Shown one piece after another: positions 13,498-16,491 of a stretch of 32,255 nt of DNA (the first letter of the stretch is position 1; the number at the start of each line of letters is the position of its first letter). This DNA comes from a virus: the IMG/VR virus record IMGVR_UViG_3300013126_000134, positions 1-32,255 of that record. One strand, written 5' to 3'. The notes beneath the pieces are model-generated. The model searched no databases. It was not told the DNA's origin and saw only the letters and a program-made list of their open reading frames with translations. Position numbers and translations under genes: made by a program.

Positions 13498-14874
13498 ATG
13501 CCCCCAGCATTTGAGGTTTTGCTTCTCAACACAACCGTCCCGCAGATCCAAGCGGCTCAGTCCGGCGATACTTATGTGTTCCCGAGAGCGTTGTCCTACA
13601 CTCCTGGGGTCGCAAATGCTGTCCCATATTTGGATGGCAGCAAGACTCTGGTCAGTAGCGCAGGCTTCAGTTTCGATGGAACAACGCTTGCCGTTCCGAG
13701 GCTGGTGACTGGTTCCAGTACATCTTGGACACAATCTAGCGACACCTATTCCGGTGGCGGCGTGACTGATGTGCACGCAGCTATGCGGCGATGTGTCGTG
13801 CGAGATGATGGCAGCGTCAATTATTACCTGTCGGCTACTGATTCAACTCTGAAAGCCGATGGAACGGCAGCAGATCTTAGTGGTGCTGACGGTCAGGTGA
13901 TGGTTGAGATCCCTGCGTTTTATGTCAAATTCACTCCTGGATCTACCCGCTCCTGGGCCGTGTCTTTGCTTCCGGCGGCTGGCTATGGATTGCATCCCGC
14001 GTTCATCAAAGATGGTGAGCCGGTTGCGTATCGCTACGTTGGCGCATACGACGCTTGCGTCAACACGACTGGCAGCACATATCAATCAGGACTGAACTGG
14101 AACAACAACGTCGGTGTTGGAAATGGTCAGGCGTGGGACACGGCTACAGCAAAGCTAGCATCTGTCTCTGGTGTTTTCCCTGCGGTTGGAATGACCAGGG
14201 CACAAGCTCGCGCAATGGCAGCAAACCGTGGCACTGGTTGGCGGCTTGTTGATGCGTATCTTCAATGGGCAATCGGTCTGTTGTTTTTAGTAGAGCATGG
14301 GACGTTCAGGACTCAGCAGACCATTGGTGATGGCAATGTCGCAGTCTCTGCTGGATACCCTGCTGCAAGCGGAAGTCAAACCGATTCACCGCACTCTGAA
14401 GCTGGCAAGTCCAACAGCATTGGTAATGCCAGCACCAACACAACTAATGGTGCGTCGAGCGGCACTCGAAATACCGCATTCATGTCATATCGTGGCATCG
14501 AAAACTGGTACGGCAACTGCTGGAATTGGGTTGATGGCTTCAATATCAACACCAACCAAGGCTATGTGAGCAATACGCGAGCAAACTTTGCAGACGATAC
14601 TGCTACGGGATACAACGCAATTGGCGCTGCGATGGTTGCAAGTGATGGCTATGTAACCAATGTGCAGCAAGAACCGTATGCGTTCTTACCCAGCGCAGTT
14701 GGTGGTAGTAGTTCAACGTATCTTGCTGACTATTACTATCAAGCGAGTGGATGGCGGGTCGCTCTTTTTGGCGGGAGTGCGGATAGGGGTGCGCTTGCCG
14801 GCGGGTTCTGTTGGAGTCTGATTGATGATTCGTCTAGTGCGAATCGTCTTATCGGTGCGCGGATCGCTTTCTAA
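13498..14874 (+). CDS. DGR target protein with C-type-lectin-like variable C-terminus
   Basis: This 458-aa protein starts at ATG 13498, 6 nt after GAGG. The N-terminal 90 residues look like a tail-attachment region. The rest (about 100-458) has the formylglycine-enzyme/C-type-lectin pattern of DGR targets: MTRAQARAMAANRGTGWRLV, ENWYGNCWNWVDGFNI, and the ending GWRVALFGGSADRGALAGGF with IGARIAF. Residues 418-457 are the variable repeat, copied with adenine changes from the template at 14905-15025. It is probably the receptor-binding tip of the tail, diversified to follow changes in the host surface. The variable residues include R420, A422, L423, S427, D429, R430, L433, C438, S440, I442, D443 and L451. 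Confidence 0.92.
   Translation: MPPAFEVLLLNTTVPQIQAAQSGDTYVFPRALSYTPGVANAVPYLDGSKTLVSSAGFSFDGTTLAVPRLVTGSSTSWTQSSDTYSGGGVTDVHAAMRRCVVRDDGSVNYYLSATDSTLKADGTAADLSGADGQVMVEIPAFYVKFTPGSTRSWAVSLLPAAGYGLHPAFIKDGEPVAYRYVGAYDACVNTTGSTYQSGLNWNNNVGVGNGQAWDTATAKLASVSGVFPAVGMTRAQARAMAANRGTGWRLVDAYLQWAIGLLFLVEHGTFRTQQTIGDGNVAVSAGYPAASGSQTDSPHSEAGKSNSIGNASTNTTNGASSGTRNTAFMSYRGIENWYGNCWNWVDGFNINTNQGYVSNTRANFADDTATGYNAIGAAMVASDGYVTNVQQEPYAFLPSAVGGSSSTYLADYYYQASGWRVALFGGSADRGALAGGFCWSLIDDSSSANRLIGARIAF
14748..14868 (+). repeat. DGR variable repeat (VR)
   Basis: These 121 nt at the 3' end of the target gene align without gaps to the template repeat 157 nt downstream. By hand count, 99 positions are identical and 22 differ. 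Of the differences, 21 lie at template A (15 A to G, 3 A to C, 3 A to T) and one is a T to G at 14787. The repeat ends in the invariant GATCGCT (14862-14868) two codons before the stop. One further base upstream (14747, template A) also fits A to G. Confidence 0.95.
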
Positions 14875-14904
14875 GGTGTTGTAAAGGGGCAACGGTGTAA
14901 TAGA

Positions 14905-15025
14905 TGGATGGCAGGTCACTATTTTTGGCAGGAATGCGAATAATGGTGCGAATGCCAGCAGGTTCTATTGGAATCTGAATAATGATTCATCTAATGCGAA
15001 TCGTAATATCGGTGCACAGATCGCT
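14905..15025 (+). repeat. DGR template repeat (TR)
   Basis: This non-coding copy lies between the target stop and the reverse transcriptase gene. In the target frame it carries ten AAT codons. There are 34 adenines by hand count, 21 of which differ in VR, while only 1 of 87 non-adenines differs. Every A-containing codon in this frame can change at A without ever giving a stop. The TR RNA would be the template for error-prone cDNA that replaces VR. Confidence 0.95.
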
Positions 15026-15124
15026 GTTGTGGAAACACGGCGCCGTGTCCCCTGTCCGATTGGGCGAATATGACAATCCAATACGGCTTGGTAGCGAAAG
15101 CGAACAGCCGGGAGGTCAACAGCG
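15026..15124 (+). ncRNA. TR-RT spacer, probable 3' part of the DGR template RNA
   Basis: No ORF is convincing between TR and RT. The spacer contains the palindrome at 15035-15048 and ends with the RT ribosome site GGAGG (15110-15114 region). In characterised DGRs the template RNA extends from TR into this spacer, which folds and binds the reverse transcriptase complex. I infer the same here from position only; the RNA ends are unknown. Confidence 0.4.
15035..15048. repeat. perfect 14-bp palindrome after TR
   Basis: ACACGGCGCCGTGT is its own reverse complement and begins 9 nt after the template repeat. It could form a GC-rich RNA hairpin or a DNA cruciform. There is no following T-run, so it is not a terminator. 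It lies in the 99-nt TR-to-RT spacer, which in studied DGRs contributes structure needed to prime cDNA synthesis; that role here is inferred. Confidence 0.6.
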
Positions 15125-16150
15125 ATGAAACGGCATGGCAATCTTTGGGTCAAAATTATTGACTTAGAGAATATCAAACTGGCGCATCGTCTTGCCCGTA
15201 AAGGTAAATCGTTTTACACCGAAGTGAAAATGGTTGATTCTGACATTGATAAGTATTGTTTGCAGATTCAAAAAATGCTTGCAAACAAAACTTTCACGAC
15301 CAGTCAGTACGAAGTTTCAGAGCGGCATGACGGCAGGAAACAAAGAGTGATTCACAAGCTGCCATATTTTCCTGACAGGATTGTTCAACACGCCTTATTG
15401 AATGTCATAGGCCCAATACTGGTCAATACTTTTATCAGAGATTCTTTCCAATCAATACGAGGAAGGGGTACTCATGATGCAATGAAGCGTGTTAAAAAAT
15501 TGGTCAGAAGCGATGACTGCCCAAAATATGCGCTTAAGATTGATGTCAAAAAATATTATCCGTCTGTTGATAATGATTTGTTAAAAGCTGCAATTAGAAG
15601 AAAGATTAAGTGCCAAGATACTTTGTGGCTTGTTGATGACATTATTGATTCAACAAAAGGATTGCCAATAGGAAATTACACAAGTCAGCATTTTGGCAAT
15701 TTGTATCTTAATTCTCTTGACTGGCACATCAAGCAAAACATCCGGCCAGATGGGTATTATAGATATTGTGATGATATAGTTGTGTTTGGCAAAACCGTAA
15801 ATCAACTAATGTTGATAAAACAAAGAATTGAAGACTGCCTATCAATGTTAAGGTTGCAAGTTAAAAGCAATTGGTCTATCACCAATGTAGAAAAAAATGG
15901 AATTGATTTTGTTGGGTATAGGTTTTTTCCTTCTTTCACAAGATTAAGAAAAAACATTGCTGTGAATTTTAAGTCAACTTGCGACTGGATTAGAAAGCGC
16001 AAAAACAAAGTTAATCGTAATTTGGCGCTTAGTAAGTTGATGGCTTACAAGGGTTGGGTTATGACCGCTAGTGCAAAACAATTGTGGAGATGTCATGTCT
16101 CTCATAATTTGGTTGTGATGTTTCCCAAACAATTGAAAGGTGCAATATGA
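15125..16150 (+). CDS. DGR reverse transcriptase
   Basis: This 341-aa protein starts at ATG 15125, about 10 nt after GGAGG. The motifs run in order: QRVIHKLPYFPDRIVQHALL (73-92), motif A KIDVKKYYPSVD with D140, the DGR-specific motif GLPIGNYTSQHFGNLYLN with S187-Q188, catalytic YCDD (214-217), and NGIDFVGYRFFP followed by a thumb-like basic C-terminus. The I/L-G-x3-S-Q motif separates DGR enzymes from retron and group II intron RTs. It copies the TR RNA into cDNA with errors at adenines. Its DNA is AT-richer than neighbouring structural genes (40 of 120 bases G+C over 15481-15600). Its stop overlaps the next ATG. Confidence 0.95.
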   Translation: MKRHGNLWVKIIDLENIKLAHRLARKGKSFYTEVKMVDSDIDKYCLQIQKMLANKTFTTSQYEVSERHDGRKQRVIHKLPYFPDRIVQHALLNVIGPILVNTFIRDSFQSIRGRGTHDAMKRVKKLVRSDDCPKYALKIDVKKYYPSVDNDLLKAAIRRKIKCQDTLWLVDDIIDSTKGLPIGNYTSQHFGNLYLNSLDWHIKQNIRPDGYYRYCDDIVVFGKTVNQLMLIKQRIEDCLSMLRLQVKSNWSITNVEKNGIDFVGYRFFPSFTRLRKNIAVNFKSTCDWIRKRKNKVNRNLALSKLMAYKGWVMTASAKQLWRCHVSHNLVVMFPKQLKGAI

Positions 16151-16491
16151 AAGTCTTTTCCGACACGCAGCCGCAGACCTATCAGGTTATTGGTTCAAAC
16201 TTGCTGATTCATTGGGATGCACAGGAAGTCGCTGCGCCGTCTATGGGTGATGAGCAAAGAACGCAGTGGAGCGCCGAGGAAGCGGTGGTTGCGTCTTCTG
16301 CAAATCGTTCTCAGATCATTGAGGCGATCATCGCATCCAAGTACAGCACTGGCGCTGAGATTGCTGCGATCAACAATCAGACAGCAGATCCAGATGCGTA
16401 TTTGGCTTATCAGTCATTCCGCGCACAAGCCAAACAACTGGCTGATGGTTGGTTGCGAGCGCAGGTCGAGCAGCAGGTGCAGCCGGAATGA
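16147..16491 (+). CDS. small tail-region protein downstream of RT
   Basis: This 114-aa acidic protein starts at ATG 16147, overlapping the RT stop and 6 nt after AAAGG. The N-terminal part is beta-like; the C-terminal half is helical (SQIIEAIIASKYSTGAEIAA, then AYQSFRAQAKQLADGWLRAQ) and resembles phage tail-fibre-assembly or virion accessory proteins. It is not Avd-like: Avd proteins are basic four-helix bundles, and this one is acidic with a beta N-terminus. The function is unknown. Confidence 0.55.
   Translation: MKVFSDTQPQTYQVIGSNLLIHWDAQEVAAPSMGDEQRTQWSAEEAVVASSANRSQIIEAIIASKYSTGAEIAAINNQTADPDAYLAYQSFRAQAKQLADGWLRAQVEQQVQPE

Follow-up and report, generated by a model that had tools for sequence, protein, structure and literature searches.

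A diversity-generating retroelement in a phage tail operon, apparently complete and recently in use, that lacks a recognisable Avd

Phage diversity-generating retroelements (DGRs) that diversify tail proteins are already well documented (PMC8144416). In the viral record considered here, a tail gene ends in a 121-nt repeat that is followed by a second copy of the repeat and by a reverse transcriptase (RT) gene. This arrangement raises two questions: whether these parts form a complete DGR that is still in use, and how such an element would operate without a recognisable avd gene.

The repeat pair, the RT and the diversified tail protein

The window analysed here is the whole viral record, 32,255 bases of linear DNA that may be incomplete. 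Four features define the cassette:

13498–14874, + strand: target gene, a 458-aa tail protein (phrog_5302 tail protein, E 6e-86) with a predicted C-terminal DGR variable-protein (C-type lectin/FGE-like) fold
14748–14868, + strand: variable repeat (VR), codons 418–457 of the target gene
14905–15025, + strand: template repeat (TR), with 4/121 differences to either of two relatives that share 85–86% identity in their RT DNA
15125–16150, + strand: DGR reverse transcriptase, 341 aa (phrog_1423, E 6e-94; RVT_1; best PDB match 8ub7, E 5e-33; dN/dS 0.04)

An initial examination of the letters alone (the sequence-only reading) had described a gap-free VR/TR alignment of 121 nt in which 21 of 34 template adenines are altered but just one of the 87 remaining bases. 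A recount on the record reproduced these figures exactly, with 22 mismatches over 121/121 columns and a hypergeometric P of 1.1e-13 for their concentration at adenines. The same reading spoke of an A-to-C/G/T load; the changes are indeed adenine-directed but strongly skewed towards A>G, which accounts for 15 of the 21, with three A>C and three A>T making up the rest. If the VR is taken as the template instead, the mismatches cannot be ascribed to any one base. A further base may belong to the repeat (14747/14904), again with an A>G, and a search of the 32,255-base record for another TR-like copy found none besides this pair. The VR ends just before the stop codon of the 458-codon target gene.

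The RT open reading frame is intact and contains the motifs LPIGNYTSQ and YCDD. Its closest solved structure in a phmmer search is 8ub7, which we take to be the BPP-1 DGR RT. The phrog_1423 assignment, the 8ub7 match, the SQ motif and the conserved YxDD all agree with the earlier identification of a DGR-type enzyme just downstream of the repeats, and mark the adjacent gene as an RT of the DGR type. The stretch from 15500 to 15999 within this gene has a GC content of 34%, compared to about 50% in its neighbours, which is consistent with an acquired cassette.

For the target protein, a phmmer search against the PDB returned chance antibody matches only, and the fold was settled by structure comparison. 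An AlphaFold2 model (pLDDT 81, pTM 0.83) was compared to known structures with Foldseek, which placed the Thermus aquaticus variable protein TaqVP (5vf4) at the top (E 6e-12, probability 1.00), followed by the Mtd structures 1yu0–1yu4 and FGE-like enzymes. Since the model lies nearest to TaqVP and then to Mtd variants, the proposed C-type-lectin fold holds for the predicted structure, and the lectin-like target with the VR at its 3' end that the sequence-only reading envisaged is thus of the predicted TaqVP/Mtd type. Sequence identity to TaqVP is 17%, and that protein comes from a T. aquaticus DGR rather than from the phage group of the window.

Family matches of the neighbouring genes agree with a tail operon. 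Because these genes encode an SU10-type capsid, portal and adaptor, along with a terminase, an ejection protein, a tail fibre and a holin, the phage is SU10-like and probably short-tailed. The nearest portal proteins belong to the Manatee Spring phages (59.5%) and to Methylophilales phage Venkman (55%), and the annotated tail operons of these phages list no RT. A search of the phage collection found no nucleotide relative.

The cassette shares with the BPP-1 DGR (mtd-avd-TR-brt) the order target(VR)-TR-RT, adenine-specific mismatches, a TR-RT spacer, a tail receptor-binding gene that encodes a C-type-lectin fold (predicted in the window) and carries the VR at its 3' end, and a homologous RT (31% identical when aligned). 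It differs in several respects. In BPP-1 avd lies between VR and TR, whereas the window lacks it, and the VR-TR gap is 36 nt in the window as opposed to about 400 in the BPP-1 clade; the TR-RT spacer is 99 nt compared to about 140; the RT motif is YCDD instead of YMDD; and the window lacks a strong hairpin 3' of the VR. Other counterparts are provided by short-spacer phage DGRs, among them those of the crAss-like phages cr50_1 and cr52_1 and of Psychrobacillus phage Perkons. Their RTs share 37–43% identity with that of the window across most of the protein, and several also have a similar target gene alongside. These are crAss-like and large phages, whereas the phage of the window is SU10-like. 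The cr52_1 RT (L129:3001-4026) and target genes contain in-frame TAG codons and are recoded. A DGR on a 283-kb viral contig has two VRs for one TR (L061:1042-1150 and 2549-2657).

Adenine-directed divergence among relatives

A-specific TR/VR pairs were identified in 91 of 101 RT-related viral loci, a set that takes in about 10 L016-type loci. In the pair L004 and L005, the TRs are identical and the upstream target DNA is 99.4% identical, and 14 of the 15 VR differences fall at TR adenines. Between the window and its relatives L002 and L003, the VR differs at 15–17 of 32–33 shared adenine positions and at 5–7 of 87 others, some of which track TR differences. By comparison, the TR-RT spacer is 98–99% identical and the VR-TR spacer 97–100% identical in two relatives. 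Across 16 groups of loci with identical TRs, VRs differ at 376 of 782 template-adenine cells and at 27 of 2147 others (odds ratio 73; the groups span three RT clades, and cells inside a group are not independent). It is therefore the VR, and not the TR, that diverges at TR-adenine positions among relatives.

The RT has a dN/dS of 0.04 between the window and L002/L003 at a dS of about 1 and, judged by this ratio, is under strong purifying selection. One relative, L286, illustrates loss of the system: a deletion that starts halfway through the TR has taken all but the closing stretch of the RT gene, and a search of its 34-kb record found no RT. In the scar, at L286:2680-3020, the 5' part of the TR runs directly into the final RT codons. 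The target remains open, the gene downstream (the counterpart of the window gene at 16147) is intact, and the shortened TR differs from the VR at 16 of 19 adenines and at none of the other bases. L286 provides a natural example of how a diversified tip becomes frozen.

L286 is also what could be said for a fossil, in which the VR of the window was written long ago by a system no longer active in the lineage, as its open target beside half a TR and no RT shows that such loss occurs. In the window itself, the RT is intact and strongly constrained, the RNA spacers hardly vary even though synonymous sites approach saturation, and the VR shows almost no drift at bases other than adenine, all of which make a fossil very improbable. 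We give next to no credence to the idea that VR and TR are an ordinary duplication that diverged by drift or was edited by a deaminase-like mutator. The predominance of A>G is what a deaminase would produce, but A>C and A>T account for 6 of the 21 changes, and adenine changes pooled over relatives comprise 826 A>G, 315 A>T and 292 A>C. Moreover, the A-specific pattern recurs in dozens of relatives, VRs alone vary among identical-TR loci, a DGR RT adjoins the repeats, and the RT genes of close relatives exhibit a different spectrum with the usual transition excess.

RT constraint at near-saturated synonymous sites, near-invariant spacers and A-directed VR divergence together argue that the cassette is maintained and has been used. 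The sequence-only reading had held that the system has been active in this lineage, and had named as signs to the contrary VR differences spread over all bases or an RT inactive in all relatives; the differences instead cluster at TR adenines, the RT is intact in most relatives with one having lost it, and the divergence specific to the VR supports activity. The cassette is a real and complete DGR with probable activity, and a complete, recently active DGR that lacks Avd is, in our view, very nearly certain as its explanation. In kind the cassette itself is ordinary: one more phage DGR, of a type with short spacers and no Avd.

Spacer RNA, the absence of Avd and neighbouring small proteins

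Three further features bear on how the element might operate:

14869–14904, + strand: VR-TR spacer, which holds the stop codon of the target gene and, as a weak inverted repeat, GTTG-N8-CAAC; 97–100% identical in two relatives
15026–15124, + strand: structured RNA by covariation, putatively the 3' portion of the template RNA of the DGR, with hairpins that have GAAA/UUCG-type tetraloops and a weak Rfam RT-18 match at 15054–15126
16147–16491, + strand: gene for a small protein of 114 aa, whose start overlaps the RT stop; conserved beside target/RT in relatives and kept in L286 after the RT deletion

BPP-1-type elements have a GC-rich hairpin of 7–10 bp with a GRNA loop, 4–34 bp after the VR (PMC3240598). 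The corresponding hairpin in the window has 4 bp and an 8-nt loop (P 0.3), and some relatives have stems of 6–8 bp. As a general feature of the clade this hairpin was rejected, reaching P<0.05 in only 14 of 91 loci.

Several stems are predicted in the 99-nt TR-RT spacer of the window, with a z of only -1.4 when the spacer is taken alone. Across 22 relatives, a four-helix structure pairs 94.8% of cells and contains 59 double-change cells, compared to 18 ± 3 in shuffled alignments. The structure collapses when slid by one column, a control that favours it in that it was drawn from the same sequences. Tetraloops in the alignment alternate between GAAA-like and UUCG/UACG types among relatives. The window gives a full-model structural match to Rfam RT-18 at 20.1 bits, below the gathering threshold of 41.3, and we do not claim membership. 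Rfam RT-17 matches above its gathering threshold lie exactly between TR and RT in four relatives (L008:5908-5998, L010:5306-5389, L013:2325-2405 and L014:5903-5983). The covariation marks the TR-RT spacer as structured RNA, and the Rfam matches relate it to RT-17/RT-18. That these families coincide with the TR-RT spacer of DGRs suggests that RT-17 and RT-18 represent the 3' portion of such template RNAs.

Avd is essential in BPP-1. A tblastn search with BPP-1 Avd, in which about 60 BPP-1-clade loci served as a working positive control, gave no match in the window, whose record may be incomplete, or in loci of its clade, and the window has no open reading frame of Avd size between VR and RT. 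The absence of avd from the cassette rests on this search, the bAvd (PF22296) and 23S IVP (PF05635) profiles having matched nowhere and thus being uninformative on the point. What the sequence-only reading called the full signature accordingly stands for TR, VR, RT and target, but avd is missing and the hairpin after the VR is weak. The clade of the window therefore either works without a recognisable Avd or has one elsewhere in the true genome.

Could the 16147–16491 product be a replacement for Avd, a new accessory protein of the RT? Both in the window and in the majority of close relatives, the start of its gene coincides with the RT stop codon (gap -4), and in 19 of the 25 loci in which the gene was found the RT is directly adjacent. 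L286 argues otherwise, as it retains the gene beside a DGR-type target with no RT in its 34-kb record, so that the gene tracks the target. Its predicted model, composed of beta strands and three helices, has similar predicted folds among crAss-like and other phage proteins, one of which is annotated DUF4376, and the product has no bAvd match, whereas BPP-1 Avd does match bAvd. A role in place of Avd is thus doubtful. Since L286 keeps both gene and target after RT loss, the product probably acts in the tail module as a partner of the target, and not as a cofactor of the RT.

In other relatives, the slot of the 16147 gene is occupied by an unrelated 96-aa protein (FTGSDVLI...KKINRYY), which we call family ii (L070:4050-4328, L100:4050-4337 and 78 further viral loci). 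A DGR-type RT lies nearby in 80/80 of these viral loci, mostly just upstream, which makes family ii a candidate DGR-linked accessory protein.

T>G changes and a possible second error of the RT

The single non-adenine mismatch of the window belongs to a type that recurs in other loci:

14787, + strand: non-adenine change, TR T to VR G, a putative instance of a secondary dC-opposite-U error

Among 89 distinct TR/VR pairs, which include about 10 of the L016 clade, interior non-adenine changes comprise 40 T>G, eight C>G, five C>T, two G>T and one G>A, while none of the 2120 template T had become A or C. The BPP-1 clade exhibits the same bias (17 T>G, one G>T and one G>A in 824 T), and the small L016 set contains two T>G and one T>C. 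In VR-VR comparisons at identical TRs, 22 of 27 non-adenine differences are T/G at template T. Within the clade of the window, T followed by A is hit at 25 of 543 positions, compared to 15 of 1577 other T, an enrichment of about five-fold (P 7e-7).

An artefact of alignment or sampling could in principle generate such an excess, as the counts pool related loci and come from metagenomic contigs with some assembly ambiguity. This explanation is quite improbable, given that the 40 events represent 39 distinct local sequences, that the bias recurs in the independent BPP-1 clade (17/19) and in the identical-TR comparisons (22/27), and that the search treats every type of non-adenine mismatch alike. 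In the RT coding sequence of close relatives, moreover, the usual transition excess is seen and T/G makes up 6.8% of substitutions. Judged by these comparisons, the T>G change at 14787 is not noise.

The simplest cause would be insertion of dC opposite template U, dC being the base that the RT also prefers opposite A. It is likely, in our estimation, that DGR RTs make this second, much rarer base-specific error, dC opposite U (T>G), which in surviving VRs would affect about 2% of positions, and that they do so in at least two RT clades, with an enrichment of about five-fold where U precedes A in the clade of the window. An in-cell study of the BPP-1 RT, bRT, found dC to be the main error opposite A (59%), and the available portions of its text do not mention template U (PMC12875486). 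Roux et al. describe at least 75% of mismatches at A, with no breakdown of the remaining non-A mismatches in the portions available (PMC8144416). No prior report of a secondary T>G error was found in the part of the bRT fidelity literature that was covered.

By analogy with BPP-1, the TR and a structured 3' spacer would be transcribed, and the RT would bind this TR-spacer RNA and prime cDNA near the 3' end of the TR. Misincorporation at template A, mainly of dC, would yield A>G, and the cDNA would replace the VR, so that the tip of the tail protein gains new residues at about 20 positions. The phage population would thereby sample new receptor specificities. Two elements of this scheme are proposed here: the RNA-RT complex may function without Avd, with the short structured spacer or a factor that is unrecognised or of host origin in its stead, and the RT may also place dC opposite template U at the frequency given above.

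The cassette belongs to a compact group that has no Avd but conserves a structured RNA, and it thereby raises the question of how an RT of the DGR type can function when that protein is missing. The secondary dC-opposite-U error, seen in this group and in the BPP-1 clade, is directly testable by cDNA sequencing. If true, it would widen the set of codons that can be reached beyond adenine positions and would point to an active-site cause shared with the A>G preference.
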